From positions 1 through 64,000 of IMG/VR virus record IMGVR_UViG_3300048672_000219: a stretch of 64,000 nt of DNA. The stretch is one strand, 5' to 3'. A model generated the notes under the pieces. The model was not told the origin of the DNA, searched no databases, and saw only the letters and a list, made by a program, of their open reading frames with translations. The DNA is from a virus. Shown here in pieces: positions 3,772-63,639 of this stretch. Positions within the stretch are counted from its first letter, which is position 1. Each line of letters starts with the position of its first letter. The position numbers were made by a program, and so were the translations under genes.

Positions 3772-6700
3772 TTATAGTTTGCAGCTTTCACAATCATCTT
3801 CTACCTTCAAGCCAGCGGCAGTGTTTGTGTAATACTTTGTCTTCATGCCGCACTTAATACGATAGAACCAATTAGATAGCAACTCTTTCGCACTAATTTG
3901 CTTTGGCTTACCTTCTTCAAATTGACGGTAATCGTCTGCGCTGATAGCTTGCCCACAGAACTTTTGGAAAATCGCATACATCTCAATCAGGTCTTTAGTT
4001 GCCACATCGTAAGCAGACTGATAGAAGCCTTTGAGCTTCTCCAAATCTGGTGCCAAGAATACAGTTTTGTTTGTACCAGAAGTTTTTACCACAACAAGTT
4101 CACGCACAGGGTACAGTGAATTAGTAGTGTTACCAGCAATGCTGCTACTCTCAACCGGCATGAATGCTTCTAACACACTGTTACGCATACCGTACAACTT
4201 AATCTCTTCTCGCAACCCTTCCCAATCCAGCAGCAACGGTTGATCCATAATATTGTCCACATGTTTTGCATACGTGTCAATTGGCAACCAGCCTTCTGCA
4301 TACTTAGTTTTGTCAAACCATTCGCACTTACCGCGTTCCTTTGCCAAACGCACAGAGGCTTTATGAAGATAAAAACTGTGCATTTCTGCCAAGCGGTGCA
4401 TGTAAGCTTTACCTTCCGTACTGTCGTAAGTCAGCCCCTTAGTTGCCATGTCGTGAGCTAGGTTTGTGATACCAATACCAGCAGAGCGACGAGCTTGTGC
4501 AGTACGTTTAAGATGGTGGAACGGGTAATCCATAATACTAATTACATTGTCCACCATCTTCAGAGCCAGATAAGCCGTTTCTTCATAATCCTCTGGAGCC
4601 ACCTTACCGGCTACAATTGCTGCCAAATTGCAAAGACCAATTTCTCCAGTTGCTTCTTCTGAATATAAGTCTGTGACATTCTTATATTCATTTGTCGGTA
4701 GGCCGATTTCTTGGCATTGTCCTGTCAGAATACCATTGAACATTCCCAAGTGACGTTTATGCTCAGTAAAGCAGTACGTGTCGTCGTAACGACCTTCATC
4801 AATAACACTTTCAATCTTAATAAACTGAGAGCATTCTCGGTTAGGTCGATGGCTTGTCACAATCAGTCTACGAGTTTTAAGTCCCATATCTGCAAGTTTA
4901 CTCAATCCATCGTTGCCAATCAGAAGACGATAAGAAGTTTTGCATTGATACATTTTCTTTTGACCCGTCCCATCATTTGCGGGAAGTGGTCGCATAGCTG
5001 CTTTCGCATTCATGGTAACTTTAGAGCGAACACCTGTAGTTTGCAACATCATTTGCACTTCTTTTAAAAACTCTGGCTCAACGCTGCCAATTTGGTAAGA
5101 TTGAGTATTTCCATTTACAGAAACTGTTCCATCTGAATCCATCAAACCAGCCAGCCATTCAAGCCGAGATTTGATTGAGTACTGACAATCCGGTACAAAA
5201 AACTTTTCTTTCAATTTAGTCGTGTGAGCATAAATTCGATCTTGATTTGGTTGAACAATCTTATCTACAAATATGTCCTTCAACTCATCAAAAATGGCTT
5301 TCTTTTCGCCGTAAAAATACAGACGCTGTTTGTTCCCAACCACACAACCATCACCAGAGTAGAATCCGTTTGCATAAGCATGGTCTAGCTCAAGAGTTCC
5401 CTCGATGATGGGCAGATCAAACTTAATCAGTTTATCGCCTTTTTGCAAATCTTTTGCCCGTTTTTCAATTGTCCAAGTGGTTCCACCTGTATTTCTTACA
5501 GACAGATAAAACTTGTGATCTTCCGTGCATTCCAACTCAAAACCATCCTTTGTTACAACACGCAGAAGTTTCCGGTTCTCACCAGTCTTAACCACATCTA
5601 CCAAAGACCACTCTTTACCGTTCCAAATCTCTACTTTTTGATCGCGTAGGGATGAAATCTCTTTGTAACCATCTTTAGTAAGAATGCGAGTTTCTGGTGC
5701 CACACATAAATTGCTGCTCCAAATCGTGTCCTTAAATGGTGTATGTCGATTCATTTCATAAGTGTTGTGTTCATACATACGACCAGTCTCTTGTTGCATA
5801 CGCAGAAACTCAAGAGCCAGCTTACGAGCATTGATAAACTTCCGCTTACCAGTGGTAGCATACTTCTCATAAAGTTCTACAAAACCTTTGTAGTCGTCAG
5901 AGTACATTTTCTTGTACAGGTCTGGTGCAGCTTTAAAACTAATCAGCATCCACTTCTCATTCTTTGCAGCCTTCTCTGCAAAATACGGATGGTATCCAAA
6001 ACTATAGTCAATGCCGCCAATCTTTTGCTTTGCTACAGTGGTGGGATGACGCAAACGCAACAGAGTTTCCACTTCAGGGTCAAGGCAATTAAAATGCACA
6101 GTAGCAGCACCACCACGACCACCTTGTAGGTTAGCGTGTACAGCCGCCTCAGTGGCACGATAGTAGGGCAGTTTGCCAGAATGCTTGATCGTATTGTTTC
6201 GCACTCCATCACCTTTACTGCGAGTCTCAATGTAGCCACCAATACCAGCACTAGCACAAGTCATAGTGTAAGCAATGTGATCCCCCGCAGCCAAGCTACC
6301 AGCATCGTCACCGGACTTAAACACGCAGCAAGAAGCATAGCTTCGTTTCTCAGTGCCAAGATTTACAATGTTAGGCGTTGGTGCATTAATATTGCTTTCA
6401 CTAAACTTCTTGTAATACTTAATAACTTCTTCAACTCGCGTACCTACAGGCTCATCTTTGCATACACCCAAAGCCATGCGCATCCATACAAATGCAGGAG
6501 ACTCTAGTGCAATATTCTTTTCAATATCTCGCAGAGCATACTTAGTAGAGATTTGATGAATTACCGAATGCACACTGTTCAAGTCTTTATTATGGTCAAT
6601 TACACCTTGCAGAATATTCAGTTCGTAATCCGAGTAGCCCATGTTTTCCCACAGACCAGACACAACCATCTTATGATACATTTCTGGCATTGTTGGGATA

Positions 6701-6981
6701 TGATCGTGACCGCCAAAGGCTTGCTTATAAACATCGCCAATTAGAAGTCGTCCAGCCATCAGCATGTGCGGCGTGTCTTCCATATCCATACATGCTTGGA
6801 TCATTGCATTTTGCAGTTCTACAGTGGTGCATTCTTCTGGCAGCTTCTTATAAGTTTCTGCCACAATACCAAACCAGTCCGCACCAACTTCTCCTGCCCA
6901 TTTTGCCCAACGTGTAAGCTTCTCTGGGTCGAAAGCTTCTACGTCACCATTGCGTTTCTTAACCAGAATAGTTTTACTCAA
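3772..6981 (-). CDS. nrdA: class I ribonucleotide reductase large subunit with intein
   Basis: 1069 aa precursor, about 739 aa after splicing. N-terminal ATP-cone (ILVKKRNGDVEAFDPEKL), catalytic Cys in YASCCVF (218/219), EIGLCN after the intein for the partner Cys, and a C-terminal CESCKL tail that takes electrons from the redoxin. Residues 426-755 are an intein inserted exactly before the Cys of NL-CQEIGLP, the counterpart of the E. coli thiyl-radical Cys439. The start is TTG6981, overlapping the previous stop as TTGA, with GGAGAG eight bases upstream; no in-frame ATG is better placed. It reduces NDPs to dNDPs for phage replication. Confidence 0.95.
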   Translation of the reverse strand: MSKTILVKKRNGDVEAFDPEKLTRWAKWAGEVGADWFGIVAETYKKLPEECTTVELQNAMIQACMDMEDTPHMLMAGRLLIGDVYKQAFGGHDHIPTMPEMYHKMVVSGLWENMGYSDYELNILQGVIDHNKDLNSVHSVIHQISTKYALRDIEKNIALESPAFVWMRMALGVCKDEPVGTRVEEVIKYYKKFSESNINAPTPNIVNLGTEKRSYASCCVFKSGDDAGSLAAGDHIAYTMTCASAGIGGYIETRSKGDGVRNNTIKHSGKLPYYRATEAAVHANLQGGRGGAATVHFNCLDPEVETLLRLRHPTTVAKQKIGGIDYSFGYHPYFAEKAAKNEKWMLISFKAAPDLYKKMYSDDYKGFVELYEKYATTGKRKFINARKLALEFLRMQQETGRMYEHNTYEMNRHTPFKDTIWSSNLCVAPETRILTKDGYKEISSLRDQKVEIWNGKEWSLVDVVKTGENRKLLRVVTKDGFELECTEDHKFYLSVRNTGGTTWTIEKRAKDLQKGDKLIKFDLPIIEGTLELDHAYANGFYSGDGCVVGNKQRLYFYGEKKAIFDELKDIFVDKIVQPNQDRIYAHTTKLKEKFFVPDCQYSIKSRLEWLAGLMDSDGTVSVNGNTQSYQIGSVEPEFLKEVQMMLQTTGVRSKVTMNAKAAMRPLPANDGTGQKKMYQCKTSYRLLIGNDGLSKLADMGLKTRRLIVTSHRPNRECSQFIKIESVIDEGRYDDTYCFTEHKRHLGMFNGILTGQCQEIGLPTNEYKNVTDLYSEEATGEIGLCNLAAIVAGKVAPEDYEETAYLALKMVDNVISIMDYPFHHLKRTAQARRSAGIGITNLAHDMATKGLTYDSTEGKAYMHRLAEMHSFYLHKASVRLAKERGKCEWFDKTKYAEGWLPIDTYAKHVDNIMDQPLLLDWEGLREEIKLYGMRNSVLEAFMPVESSSIAGNTTNSLYPVRELVVVKTSGTNKTVFLAPDLEKLKGFYQSAYDVATKDLIEMYAIFQKFCGQAISADDYRQFEEGKPKQISAKELLSNWFYRIKCGMKTKYYTNTAAGLKVEDDCESCKL
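4717..5706 (-). mobile_element. intein in NrdA with LAGLIDADG endonuclease
   Basis: 330 aa, from Cys426 (CVAPETRILTKDGY, splicing block A) to Gln755 (MFNGILTGQ, block F), followed by extein Cys756. Two LAGLIDADG-like helices are visible: NGFYSGDGCV (538-547) and LAGLMDSDGTV (610-620). The C-terminal intein residue is Gln instead of the usual Asn, and there is no penultimate His (GQ). Gln-ending inteins are known as a minority class, so splicing is plausible, but here it is inferred. Confidence 0.93.
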
Positions 6982-43206: not shown

Positions 43207-43463
43207 ATGGACATCACACAAACCAAAGCATACAAGGCAGGCTGGCAAGACTTTATGACAGGCCAACAATTGTCCCGCAAGGGGACTAGCAGCTCTACGC
43301 TGCAATTCGCCAATCGTTACATGTGGGCAGCGAATGCACATGATTTTAACAATTGTAGCCGTAAGGCTACTAATTCGCTTTAGCGAATAATTGGCTTGAT
43401 GGCTGGACGGCAGCGGCTAATGTTGGCAAGCAAGAAGCCGATATTATTAATGTTAAACTGTGA
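43207..43463 (+). pseudogene. RMF-like small gene interrupted by a 38-bp double hairpin
   Basis: ATG43207 opens MDITQTKAYKAGWQDFMTGQ, ending at TAG43381 after 58 codons. The last ten codons come from a 38-bp insert (43356-43393) of two perfect tetraloop hairpins, GTAGCC-GTAA-GGCTAC and ATTCGC-TTTA-GCGAAT, bounded by AATTG on both sides. Without it the frame continues after HDFNN as WLDGWTAAANVGKQEADI and on to TGA43463, nine bases before the next start. The restored protein shows the GWxxFxxG...WLxGWxxA pattern of ribosome modulation factor. It is either a truncated pseudogene or read by ribosomal bypassing between matching AAT codons. Confidence 0.6.
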
Positions 43464-49949: not shown

Positions 49950-49980
49950 TGAGTTACAGGCCACAAGCGGGACATGTGAC

Positions 49981-50006
49981 GCCACCTTCGGGTGGCTTTG
50001 TTGTTT
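49981..50006 (+). terminator. rho-independent terminator
   Basis: GCCACC-TTCG-GGTGGC (49981-49996) followed by TTTGTTGTTT. Ends the early transcript. Confidence 0.9.
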
Positions 50007-50022
50007 GTGCGGTATGTATCTA

Positions 50023-50113
50023 AATAAGAACTATTCTCATCTACTATCAGTATTCTATATGAGAATCATTCTCAATACGCTGCTGTAATCCTTAATAAGA
50101 ACTATTCTCAATT
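50023..50113 (+). promoter_or_regulatory. three Fur-box-like palindromes
   Basis: TGAGAATCATTCTCA (50060-50074) is a perfect 7-1-7 palindrome of Fur-box type. TAAGAACTATTCTCA occurs on both sides (50025-50039 and 50096-50110), 13 of 15 bases identical to it. All three lie after a terminator with no gene start near. The sequence match is direct; Fur binding is inferred. Confidence 0.65.
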
Positions 50114-50495
50114 GGCAGTCTGTTACACATCCACTCGCCTCCCTTCTTACCTTCCCCGATCTGTCCTCCAAAAGTCATCTCGACAATGCCTCTTCGCCAG
50201 TGCCAGAATCCTTATTTAGAATGAACGTTCAGTCTTAGTAGACCAGTCGTCTACAACAAGCCAGCAATTATCCGCAGCGAACATACGAGCATAGCGAGTA
50301 GACCCTTGCCAATGACAGATTTCCAGCAGCATGGGAACGTGGATAGGAAGCGAATACAAGCCGCTGGTGAGGATTTTGCAGAGGTGGCAATGGGGGTGGT
50401 AGCGTGGAGGGTGGATAGGGGCTGTAACGGCTCATTTTCAGGAAGCCGAGATATCATGCTGGTGAATGGGGAATTGAGTGTAAAAAGGCGCTAAA
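50114..50495 (+). other. gene-free stretch with TetR-operator-like palindromes
   Basis: TGAACGTTCA (50222-50231) in GAATGAACGTTCAGTC and GTAGAC-CAGTC-GTCTAC (50238-50254) look like TetR-family operators. No gene is supported: a 62-codon ORF at 50306-50494 has no ribosome site. Together with the Fur-like sites this makes about 250 bases of regulatory-looking DNA without a regulated gene. Confidence 0.5.
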
Positions 50496-50699
50496 GTGAA
50501 AATCCTTATCAACGATTGGCCTTTAGATGTAGCGGGTTTGCGACAGAAATACCCTATCAAAAGTGATTTTGAGGGCAATATCAAATATTTTGTTGACAGA
50601 GTGATCGGGATGTGGTATGATAGGGGCGTGGTTACACAACACTCGCGTTACTGGCTCATTAGATATTCTTATCAAACATACAATAAATATTTGCCATAA
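50496..50699 (+). CDS. hypothetical protein (67 aa)
   Basis: 67 aa with a GTG start behind AAAAAGGCGCTAAA: MKILINDWPLDVAGLRQKYP and on, Tyr/Trp-rich C-terminus. Unknown function. Confidence 0.5.
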   Translation: MKILINDWPLDVAGLRQKYPIKSDFEGNIKYFVDRVIGMWYDRGVVTQHSRYWLIRYSYQTYNKYLP

Positions 50700-50755
50700 A
50701 GTGACTTCCAGAAAAAATTATTTTTAAAAATTTGAGAAAATATTTTAGAAAACTC

Positions 50756-50784
50756 TTGCGCATAAAATAGCAGTGATATATAAT
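50756..50784 (+). promoter_or_regulatory. promoter of the serine recombinase
   Basis: TTGCGC (50756-50761), 17-bp spacer, TATAAT (50779-50784). Confidence 0.68.
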
Positions 50785-50824
50785 GTCTATATTAGTTGGA
50801 AATTATTCTGCAAAGGAGGATGAA

Positions 50825-51484
50825 ATGAAGAAACTTATAGGCTACTGTAGGGTCTCCACGGAACGTCAATCGAACGTCCGAAACGGTCTTTTAGCGCAGC
50901 GAGAAGAGATTTTAAGGTTCGCAAAGACGCACGGATACGAGGTCATAAGTATCGTTGAAGAGTCAATTTCGGGTAAATATGGTCTGGAATACCGCCCTAT
51001 TTTGTCCGAAGCAATTGAACAAGCAAACAAGATTGGAGCAACAATTGTTGTCTCAAAACTTGATCGTTTTAGCCGTGATGCTTTGTTCGTAATGCAGCTT
51101 ATGAAAACGAAATTGAAGTTTGTTGTGGCAGAGTTGGGAGAGGAAATCACGCCGTTCATGTTGCATATTTATTGTGTCTGTGCAGAACAAGAACGGGTGG
51201 TTATTGGCAAACGTACAAAAGCCGGACTTGAGCAAGTAAAAGCCAAGGGTGTGGTTCTGGGCAATAAAAAGAATCTCGATGTTGCTGGAAAGAAAGGCGC
51301 AGTGGCTACAGCGGTGATGGCAGACAAGTTTGCAGACATTATGAAACCAATTGCAAAGCCTATGTTGGAGTCTGGTATGTCCCTTCGTGCTGTAGCAAAA
51401 GCACTAAATGATAAGGAAGTTAAAACTGCACGTGGTGGGGTGTGGACTGCTCAGACTGTAGCCAACATCCGGTCTCGGTGGTAA
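50825..51484 (+). CDS. serine recombinase (resolvase/invertase family)
   Basis: 219 aa. Catalytic YCRVSTERQ (Ser11), VVSKLDRFSRD and AEQERVVIGKRTKAGLEQVKAKG are the resolvase-domain landmarks. The C-terminal HTH part is short (SLRAVAKALNDKEVKTARGG and WTAQTVANIRSR), so it is a small serine recombinase, not a large integrase. It could resolve multimers or invert DNA, or be cargo. The strong site AAAGGAGGATGAA fixes ATG50825; 14 codons upstream overlap the promoter. No paired inverted sites were spotted. Confidence 0.92.
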   Translation: MKKLIGYCRVSTERQSNVRNGLLAQREEILRFAKTHGYEVISIVEESISGKYGLEYRPILSEAIEQANKIGATIVVSKLDRFSRDALFVMQLMKTKLKFVVAELGEEITPFMLHIYCVCAEQERVVIGKRTKAGLEQVKAKGVVLGNKKNLDVAGKKGAVATAVMADKFADIMKPIAKPMLESGMSLRAVAKALNDKEVKTARGGVWTAQTVANIRSRW

Positions 51485-51539: not shown

Positions 51540-52001
51540 TTAACTATTTAACAGTATGTCATCAATAGTCTTCAATGTATTTGAAACAGACTTAGCATAC
51601 CATTTCTTACCTCTGGCTGTTTTCACTTCCATCTCATTTAGGTAATCAGCTATTTCTCTATAGACCAAACCCATTTCACGCATTGGTATAAGATATAGTG
51701 ATACACTTTTTGCAAAATCTACTTTCTCTTTCTGTATCTGAGCATTTGCCAATTCTCTAGCTTTTTCTCCATGCAGAGAAATTTTAGGATTCGCCATACC
51801 GTGAAGTTTTCCTTGAGACTTAGCTCTTGCAAACCCTTCTTTAGTCAATTGCGCATGGTTGTCTCTTCGTTTCCATCCACCATCATGTACTTTGTTATGG
51901 CACTCACCACACAGAGGTATCGTCCTAGTCCCTCCCATACTTTTAGGAATTACATGGTGGTCTTCTGTAGCAGGTTTATCACATTCAAAACAATAGTTCA
52001 T
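51540..52001 (-). CDS. HNH endonuclease with recombinase-type C-terminus
   Basis: 153 aa. HNH motif: CFEC (Cys4, Cys7), EDHHVIPKSMGG, LCGECHNKVHDG (Cys31, Cys34, His35). The C-terminal 40 residues, REIADYLNEMEVKTARGKKW then YAKSVSNTL, match the HTH end of the adjacent serine recombinase. AGGGAAAT before ATG52001. Probably a mobile endonuclease that borrowed a recombinase DNA-binding domain. Confidence 0.85.
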   Translation of the reverse strand: MNYCFECDKPATEDHHVIPKSMGGTRTIPLCGECHNKVHDGGWKRRDNHAQLTKEGFARAKSQGKLHGMANPKISLHGEKARELANAQIQKEKVDFAKSVSLYLIPMREMGLVYREIADYLNEMEVKTARGKKWYAKSVSNTLKTIDDILLNS

Positions 52002-52013
52002 ATTTCCCTTCCC

Positions 52014-52041
52014 ATAAAAGAAAGGGAGCACAAAGGCTCCC
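52014..52041 (-). terminator. rho-independent terminator between HTH and HNH genes
   Basis: Leftward: GGGAGCC (52035-52041) pairs with GCTCCC (52024-52029), followed by TTTCTTTTAT. Confidence 0.8.
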
Positions 52042-57129: not shown

Positions 57130-57158
57130 TTGACAAAAACTTCATGTTGTTGTATAAT
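57130..57158 (+). promoter_or_regulatory. sigma70-type promoter of the tRNA cluster
   Basis: TTGACA (57130-57135), 17-bp spacer, TATAAT (57153-57158), starting at the stop of the preceding gene. Confidence 0.9.
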
Positions 57159-57189
57159 TTCGTTCGTTAAGGAATGACACGCCTTTTCA

Positions 57190-57341: not shown

Positions 57342-57416
57342 TCCCCGTTAGTTTAACATGGTAAAATCTCGCCTTGTACGCGAGCATAGCGGTTTCGAGC
57401 ACTGCACGGGGAACCA
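57342..57416 (+). tRNA. tRNA-Thr(TGT)
   Basis: 75 bases. Acceptor TCCCCGT/ACGGGGA, discriminator A and encoded CCA; anticodon arm CTCGC-CTTGTAC-GCGAG with anticodon TGT (57375-57377); T-arm GCGGT-TTCGAGC-ACTGC. Reads ACA. Confidence 0.9.
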
Positions 57417-57422
57417 AACAAT

Positions 57423-57496
57423 GCAGCCAATCTAAAGGTTAGACGCCAGTGCTCCACACTGCACAGGGAAGATTTCGATTATCTCTGGCTGCTCCA
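57423..57496 (+). tRNA. probable tRNA-Gly(TCC), atypical
   Basis: 74 bases. Acceptor GCAGCCA/TGGCTGC, discriminator T and encoded CCA; T-loop TTCGATT. The best anticodon arm is CCAGT-GCTCCAC-ACTGC (one mismatch), giving TCC at 57453-57455 but with C instead of U at position 33. The D-loop is unusually short. U73 suits glycine. Functional status uncertain. Confidence 0.6.
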
Positions 57497-57604
57497 TTTT
57501 CTTCTACCTTAGAAGACTGTTAGCCTTACGGCTATCGAGGCTTGGAGAACAAGCTAATGAGTGAGGTGGAATTCCTTGCCGAATATTAACACAAAGGAGA
57601 GAAT

Positions 57605-57835
57605 ATGACATACCATGAGAACGCAGGTAAGGGTTCGTTTCGCCGTGAGCGAGATAAAAGTGTAACCACTAAAGAACAATTTGAAAGTAATTGGGATCGT
57701 ATCTTTGGCAAAAAGACAGTCAAGGTCGATCCAGAGCAAGCCGAAGCTAAAGGGTTTGTTTGCAAGGCTTGTCAAGGCAAAGGTGGTTGCATGGATGCTG
57801 GCTGGTATTACGAATGTCCTGAATGTGGTAAATAA
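57605..57835 (+). CDS. zinc-ribbon protein between tRNAs (76 aa)
   Basis: 76 aa. C-terminal VCKACQGKGGCMDAGWYYEC, then PECG, is a four-Cys zinc ribbon of DnaJ-finger type. The N-terminal part is basic. AAAGGAGAGAAT before ATG57605. The tRNA-Ser begins three bases after its stop. Confidence 0.68.
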   Translation: MTYHENAGKGSFRRERDKSVTTKEQFESNWDRIFGKKTVKVDPEQAEAKGFVCKACQGKGGCMDAGWYYECPECGK

Positions 57836-57838
57836 CAA

Positions 57839-57928
57839 GGAAGATTGGCTGAGAGGTTTAAGGCAGCACTCTTGAAAAGTGTCGAACTTTAAAAGGTTCC
57901 GTCCGTTCAAATCGGACATCTTCCGCCA
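57839..57928 (+). tRNA. tRNA-Ser(TGA)
   Basis: 90 bases with a long variable arm. Acceptor GGAAGAT/ATCTTCC, discriminator G and encoded CCA; anticodon arm GCACT-CTTGAAA-AGTGT with anticodon TGA (57873-57875); T-arm GTCCG-TTCAAAT-CGGAC. Reads UCA. Confidence 0.95.
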
Positions 57929-62556: not shown

Positions 62557-63639
62557 ATGGCATTTGTATATCACATCCATCTCCCAGAACAGTCGGGGGA
62601 ATATGATAAGGGTTATATTGGGTTTACTGCAACAACTGTATCTGAAAGATTTAAAGAGCACGTTGCTCTGGCAGCCATTGCGGAAAATACCTACACATTA
62701 CATAATGCGATTCGTAAACACGGTGATGCTCTTGTCGTGACCACTTTGGTAGAAGGCAGCAGCGAATATTGTCTAGATATAGAGTATAGGTTGCGACCAT
62801 ATCCAAATATCGGATGGAACATTGCCTGTGGTGGTTCTGCACCCATGTTAGGTAGAAAACATAGTGATGCAACACGTACCAAGATAAAAGCTATATTTAC
62901 TCCAGAGCATATTAAGAAGATTTCTGATAGGCAAAAAGCTATACCTACTTGGTGCCGAGGTTCATCCGATAAAGCAGTATGGGCAACCGCTTCTGAAATT
63001 TTCAAATGCTACAACGCTAATAAGGATGTAGGTGCTGTTGTGATTGGAAGGGCGTTTGGTCTTTCAGAAAAGAAATTGGAAGCAATGCTAAAGAAATTTA
63101 AATCTGGGTGGGTTCCAGATAATGATGAGGATTGGAAGATTTGGTCTGAGGATAAACCGAAACTAGAAAAAATTTGGGATGATTCTCAAGGAAAACTTCA
63201 AGCTAAAGCTGCTGAAATTACACCAGAATTAAGGGCAGCGCGGTCAAAGGGAGCGTCAGGGCGAGTCTGGACTGAAGAGATGAAGGATGCTCTTATTTTA
63301 CGAAATAAAGGTAAACGGCACACCGAAGAATCCAAGTTAAAAATTTCCAAATCAAAAATAGGTAAAAAACATACTGAAGAACAGATTCAAGCTAGGAAAG
63401 ATCGACTAGCCAAGCAACCTTGGACTAATGCGGCTAAACCCTACTTTTGGACAAAAGCTGAAGACATACGACAATTCTTGTTAGCTGGAAAAACGCAAGC
63501 AGATATATTGAGGTTCTTTGGTCTAGACAGAAAGAGTGGTTCACTTGCTGTGATAATTAAGAAAATAAAGTTTGGTTGGAATCCATCCGAGGATGAAGAT
63601 TGGATTTCCTTCAAAGAAAATTATGCAAAGGAATCATAA
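62557..63639 (+). CDS. GIY-YIG homing endonuclease with NUMOD3 repeats
   Basis: 360 aa. GIY-YIG core FVYHIHLP...KGYIGFTATTVSERFKEHV, then NUMOD3-like units (GRKHSDATRTKI, GKRHTEESKLKISKSKIGKK, HTEEQIQARK) and two similar C-terminal modules (AVVIGRAFGL...KFKSGWVPDNDEDWKIW and DILRFFGLD...KIKFGWNPSEDEDWISF). Inserted between portal and protease genes; AAGGAGGAAA before ATG62557. Confidence 0.9.
   Translation: MAFVYHIHLPEQSGEYDKGYIGFTATTVSERFKEHVALAAIAENTYTLHNAIRKHGDALVVTTLVEGSSEYCLDIEYRLRPYPNIGWNIACGGSAPMLGRKHSDATRTKIKAIFTPEHIKKISDRQKAIPTWCRGSSDKAVWATASEIFKCYNANKDVGAVVIGRAFGLSEKKLEAMLKKFKSGWVPDNDEDWKIWSEDKPKLEKIWDDSQGKLQAKAAEITPELRAARSKGASGRVWTEEMKDALILRNKGKRHTEESKLKISKSKIGKKHTEEQIQARKDRLAKQPWTNAAKPYFWTKAEDIRQFLLAGKTQADILRFFGLDRKSGSLAVIIKKIKFGWNPSEDEDWISFKENYAKES

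Follow-up and report, generated by a model that had tools for sequence, protein, structure and literature searches.

A gene-free stretch in the phage genome analysed here is very probably a direct terminal repeat, to judge from an end motif shared with mapped relatives, and its left part contains a cluster of sites resembling the operators of the bacterial iron regulator Fur. The assignment of these sequences as host-type Fur sites, enriched likewise in independent relatives whose known hosts are gammaproteobacteria that have Fur, is well supported by sequence comparison. The array is likely to be bound by host Fur, and the overall explanation, that of a terminal repeat whose Fur array titrates host Fur, is given about even chances.

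Terminal repeats are usually regarded as packaging and replication ends only. In the open full texts covered by the literature search, with subscription papers lying outside it, no report was found of Fur boxes in phage genomes, as decoys or in terminal repeats. If host regulators are also bound to such repeats, a phage could change the iron metabolism of its host or control packaging with no need to encode a protein for it, and many sequenced phages could have their genome ends searched for regulator sites.

The Phage and Its Gene-Free Region

The window, that is, the whole stretch of 64,000 nucleotides that was analysed, comprises positions 1-64,000 of an 83,454-base IMG/VR contig. The ends of this contig share an overlap of 126 bases, from which it follows that the physical ends of the phage genome lie inside the contig, with the assembly collapsing the proposed repeat to a single copy. 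The terminase and polymerase match the KPP10/PAK_P3 group at 39% and 46%, respectively, and the closest polymerase matches, at 54%, are found in Aeromonas and Pseudaeromonas phages; the phage is best explained as a lytic, myovirus-like, distant relative of PAK_P3 and KPP10. Both ribonucleotide reductase subunits, large and small, are encoded, the large one at 3772-6981 of the window, where a LAGLIDADG-domain intein interrupts it. Genes for tRNA-Thr and tRNA-Ser are located at 57342-57928.

Gene calling identified 49950-50824 as the largest gap without genes in the 83-kb genome. No credible gene was called between these positions, and a 67-aa GTG open frame at 50496-50699 has no Pfam match and is unproven as a gene. 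The preliminary description of this DNA had mentioned a terminator ahead of the sites and an absence of genes after them, both of which are borne out, the terminator being intrinsic. The features of the region are as follows, with a slash marking a cut.

49950-50824, no strand: gene-free gap (gene calling) and terminal region, corresponding to the gap at the genome terminus in PAK_P3
49950-50633, plus strand: proposed direct terminal repeat of about 684 bases; left end uncertain, candidate TTA/A after 49949
49981-49996, plus strand: intrinsic terminator of the upstream small gene
50025-50039, plus strand: Fur-like site 1, TAAGAACTATTCTCA, 12/14
50060-50074, plus strand: Fur-like site 2, TGAGAATCATTCTCA, perfect 7-1-7 palindrome, 14/14
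50096-50110, plus strand: Fur-like site 3, TAAGAACTATTCTCA, 12/14
50220-50231, plus strand: palindrome AATGAACGTTCA, TetR-operator-like, also in the terminal region of the relative G002
50238-50254, plus strand: inverted repeat GTAGAC-N5-GTCTAC, GTAGACCAGTCGTCTAC
50333-50532, plus strand: strongly G-skewed stretch; skew is also typical of the terminal regions of relatives
50497-50511, plus strand: Fur-like site 4, weak, TGAAAATCCTTATCA, 12/14, absent from the preliminary description
50585-50633, plus strand: end motif of the proposed terminal repeat, ATATTTT ... GTGGTT, with a predicted cut after 50633
50593-50621, plus strand: strong sigma-70 promoter-like sequence TTGACA-17-TATGAT, directed towards the recombinase gene, between the end motif and the predicted cut
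50825-51484, plus strand: serine recombinase (resolvase) gene, the first gene past the terminal region and a neighbour conserved in relatives

The serine recombinase (50825-51484) and a convergently encoded HNH protein (51540-52031) have a Recombinase-type C-terminal domain in common, and the order and direction of this gene pair differ between relatives.

Probable Terminal Repeat and Its End Motif

In this phage group, the motif ATATTT, followed after about 50 nt by TT/A, marks where mapped terminal repeats end on the right. In Nankokuvirus repeats it takes the form GATATTT, about 50 nt and then GTT/AAA; several Nankokuvirus records begin with the stretch that corresponds to the gap of PAK_P3 described below, and this stretch, of 756 or 771 bases, is present at both of their ends. 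The corresponding sequence in the window, AATATTTT...GTGGTT/ACACAACAC, lies in non-coding DNA. According to an end-motif matrix trained on nine relatives with the window excluded, position 50633 holds rank 2 among 166,876 positions, rank 1 falling inside an open reading frame. For two phages outside the motif training, Ges254 (Pseudomonas phage 254) and B9 of Acinetobacter, the motif-based pattern leads to positions 628 and 4915, respectively, and their records have end repeats of their own of exactly 628 and 4915 bases. The left ends of mapped repeats (Ges254, B9, G1 and Ab03) exhibit a weak pattern, TTA/A or TCA/A. Known repeat lengths in the group range from 628 to 4915 bases, all exceeding the 609 bases needed to cover the three strong Fur-like sites.

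Relatives located through their recombinase and PhoH genes contain a gene-free, strand-skewed counterpart region with the same order of small motifs, an order also observed in the gap that separates genes 112 and 114 of Pseudomonas phage PAK_P3. A transcriptome study of PAK_P3 describes this gap as the predicted genome terminus and gp113, the gene within it, as the sole untranscribed gene of that phage (PMC4933390). A replication origin with DnaA boxes was set aside given the mapped terminal repeats in PAK_P3-type records, a dual role being possible. The end motif also allows the terminal repeats of this phage group to be located in collapsed metagenome assemblies.

Fur-Like Array in the Window

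Sites were scored by their matches to TGAKAATNATTMTCA, a general consensus with 14 informative positions after the 7-1-7 Fur model. Three 20-base direct repeats start at 50020, 50055 and 50091 (spacing 35 and 36 bases), each containing one Fur-box-like 15-mer; the three 15-mers of the preliminary description, one of them perfect, were all recovered. At a threshold of at least 12/14, the whole 83-kb genome contains only four sites (one at 14/14 and three at 12/14), all within 50025-50511. Scoring against shuffled phage sequence, a check proposed in the same description, places the cluster above background: none of 300 dinucleotide shuffles had three sites within 100 bases, and only one had a perfect 14/14 site. 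A plain mismatch count of the 13-mer over the whole window gives 27 against 25.3 expected, which is not above chance; what is unusual is the clustering of the Fur-like sites, not their total.

No promoter-like sequence was found over the three strong sites on either strand. The Fur family (PF01475) has no match in five phages, the window phage included, in a search whose control was positive in 13 of 14 genomes, and the phage encodes no TetR gene either, so the candidate binder would be a protein of the host. Sites 1 and 3 in their 20-mer form also occur upstream of feoB in Methylophilus. A single-stranded DNA hairpin was rejected because shuffled sequence folds as well as the Fur-like array (z -1.0), and a non-coding RNA because no Rfam match reached gathering level.

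The two palindromes that follow the array had been read as TetR-like operators. They are present, but this reading is weak: within the first, TGAACGTTCA (50222-50231) recurs in one relative, GTAGAC-N5-GTCTAC does not recur in the same slot of relatives, and there is no TetR gene in the phage. The enrichment of TetR and other regulator motifs is partly post hoc, and among motifs not inspected beforehand, a weak excess was observed for LexA only. A res site of the adjacent serine recombinase was considered for the repeats and rejected, as relatives with a recombinase 44-61% identical lack them.

Fur-Like Sites and Other Motifs in Related Phages

The preliminary description had proposed looking for conservation in related phages, and Fur-like sites are indeed enriched in their terminal regions. 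Among 12 phages whose terminal region could be located, the terminal DNA (12.4 kb) contains 6 sites of at least 13/14, as against 3 in the remaining intergenic DNA (115 kb) and 3 in the coding DNA (774 kb); terminal against other intergenic, p=5e-5. When the letters of the motif arm were permuted (400 of 420 arrangements sampled, Fur among them), the Fur arm ranked first, with a permutation mean of 0.08 terminal sites. Perfect Fur matches in 20 related phages (1.65 Mb) amount to five, all terminal and spread over four phages; without the window, the terminal enrichment of perfect matches has p=2e-7 by a binomial calculation that assumes independent sites and is indicative only.

A denser picture is provided by eight terminal regions from Aeromonas and Pseudaeromonas phages, a set comprising phages related to phiA047 (blastn 73-82%) plus KLEP7. 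These regions contain 29 sites, 2-5 per isolate, against 1.2 (maximum 5) in shuffles, and at 13/14 they contain 14 sites against 0.12. At aligned positions in several of the Aeromonas phages, letters change yet the sites remain Fur-like; mean column identity is 0.89-0.91 for the best sites versus 0.82-0.86 for flanks, and other Fur-like sites in these terminal regions are gained or lost. Some sites are situated close to the DNA end: KLEP7 has a perfect Fur box at 57138-57152, between the ATATTT motif and the predicted cut at 57171, the nearest site of PAc starts 26 bases before the cut, and those of 2L372D and phiA009 start 105 and 119 bases before it. Dickeya phage Bobbio (MN812694), in whose genome the end motif was not found, has two 13/14 Fur-like sites at 43417 and 43486, 69 bases apart, in a gene-poor stretch.

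Other lineages hold different motifs. DnaA-box-like TGTGGATAA arrays occur in the terminal regions of L055 (reverse complement, 5415-5500) and L022 (reverse complement, 4752-4790), and DnaA-like sites in those of G007 and G011. One perfect CRP-like palindrome, TGTGA-N6-TCACA, is present per terminal region in G003 and G009 (L039, L179), and TTAATAGGGACAGAGTG is a short repeat in the corresponding slot of G005 and G009. The terminal repeats of the Pseudomonas phages PAK_P3 (62833-63364) and Ges254 (1-628) contain the short repeat ATTGTGTAA(C); the terminal repeats of both phages are without Fur sites and have short repeats such as ATTGTGTAAC instead.

Proposed Function and Alternative Explanations

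In the proposed mechanism, the left part of the repeat would supply an operator-site array for the host iron regulator, to which host Fur loaded with iron would bind. With the repeat expected twice per genome and the phage multiplying, many copies of the sites would accumulate in each cell and might, less surely, draw Fur off chromosomal promoters, derepressing iron uptake. Class I type ribonucleotide reductase normally uses iron, and such derepression would suit a phage that encodes this type of enzyme, a plausible iron consumer. In FURTA (PMC3145626), Fur is titrated by a Fur box cloned in a high-copy plasmid, and a Fur-controlled reporter is derepressed, which is the reason for supposing that a phage whose repeat has several boxes could titrate Fur as it replicates. 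Since no promoter is found at the three sites and the gene in the PAK_P3 counterpart is untranscribed, ordinary operator control is unlikely, and a decoy function is plausible, being consistent with an array that is gene-free, promoter-free and, as proposed, present twice per genome. That titration is the function for which the sites were selected is, by analogy with such plasmids, a tentative reading held with somewhat less than even confidence.

Until the phage replicates, a few sites per genome are too few to titrate Fur molecules that number in the thousands, and the DnaA-like, CRP-like or ATTGTGTAAC sites of other lineages count against a pure decoy, so that the region may in general serve another purpose. 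Together with the KLEP7 box between motif and cut, these different sites fit bound host proteins at the DNA end. On such grounds host Fur might bind and act in cis, with titration a by-product, either by coating or blocking the end against exonucleases or by making terminase cutting and packaging depend on iron status. This is a rather unlikely account in either variant; the positions of the nearest sites in KLEP7, PAc, 2L372D and phiA009 favour it, as does the presence, in this slot of other relatives, of sites for DnaA and CRP, which are likewise abundant DNA-binding proteins of the host, whereas the three good sites of the window lie 520-610 bases from the predicted cut. On a broader view, possible but unlikely, a lineage of lytic phages would use its terminal repeats as a natural DNA sponge, or as a docking platform, to which global regulators of the host bind, the regulator differing by lineage: Fur in the Aeromonas-type and window phages, and CRP- or DnaA-like sites in others.

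The remaining accounts depart further from Fur titration. It is improbable that the sites serve another binder, such as a phage initiator, terminase or recombinase or a Fur relative of the host (Zur or PerR, for example), with the Fur likeness partly accidental: slot repeats are lineage-specific (ATTGTGTAAC in PAK_P3, TTAATAGGGACAGAGTG in G005 and G009, the Fur-like array in the window) and the recombinase gene adjoins the array, but no sampled permutation of the arm is more enriched than Fur, Fur-like character is kept at aligned positions in the Aeromonas phages, and for the recombinase in particular, relatives with a 44-61% identical enzyme are without the sites. Still less probable are operators of a phage promoter through which host Fur would place left-end phage genes under iron control; the strong promoter-like sequence at 50593-50621 faces the recombinase gene and the weak site at 50497 lies about 82 bases upstream of its -35 element, yet the three strong sites have no such sequence over them, and gp113, the only gene in the PAK_P3 counterpart, is silent. 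Isolated Fur-like 15-mers are common among viral contigs, which would allow a chance cluster, and captured chromosomal promoter DNA had been offered as an alternative to a decoy; the shuffles and the recurrence of sites in relatives make both very improbable. The exact tandem pattern was found in 0 of 84,980 genomes, no similar DNA was found in plasmids or phages, and the region occupies the genome-terminus place; as far as these comparisons reach, the capture account is not supported.

Comparison with Known Systems

Bacterial Fur boxes of the 7-1-7 type share the TGAKAATNATTMTCA core with the window, which has one perfect and two 12/14 sites, but the array of the window is not placed over a promoter. 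In FURTA, synthetic transcription-factor decoys and DNA sponges, multicopy DNA with operator sites for Fur or other regulators pulls the regulator from the chromosome, as the array is proposed to do; these systems are engineered plasmids, whereas the array of the window is a natural phage element.

The terminal repeats of Nankokuvirus and Pakpunavirus (PAK_P3, KPP10, Ab03 and K8) occupy the same relative place, are gene-poor and have the same right-end motif, and they resemble the window in how AT-rich elements, internal short repeats and palindromes follow one another. Their ends are mapped, whereas those of the window's repeat are inferred, and PAK_P3 differs in that it is without Fur-like sites, has its own repeat ATTGTGTAAC and is C-rich, with a skew opposite to that of the window. 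The terminal regions of Plateaulakevirus (phiA047, 2L372D, phiA009, TS9 and PAc, the end motif not being found in TS9) and of the Pseudaeromonas phage KLEP7 are longer (1.2-1.8 kb), AT-rich and richer in sites and do not align with the window in sequence, but they are likewise gene-free and display several Fur-like boxes before the end motif.
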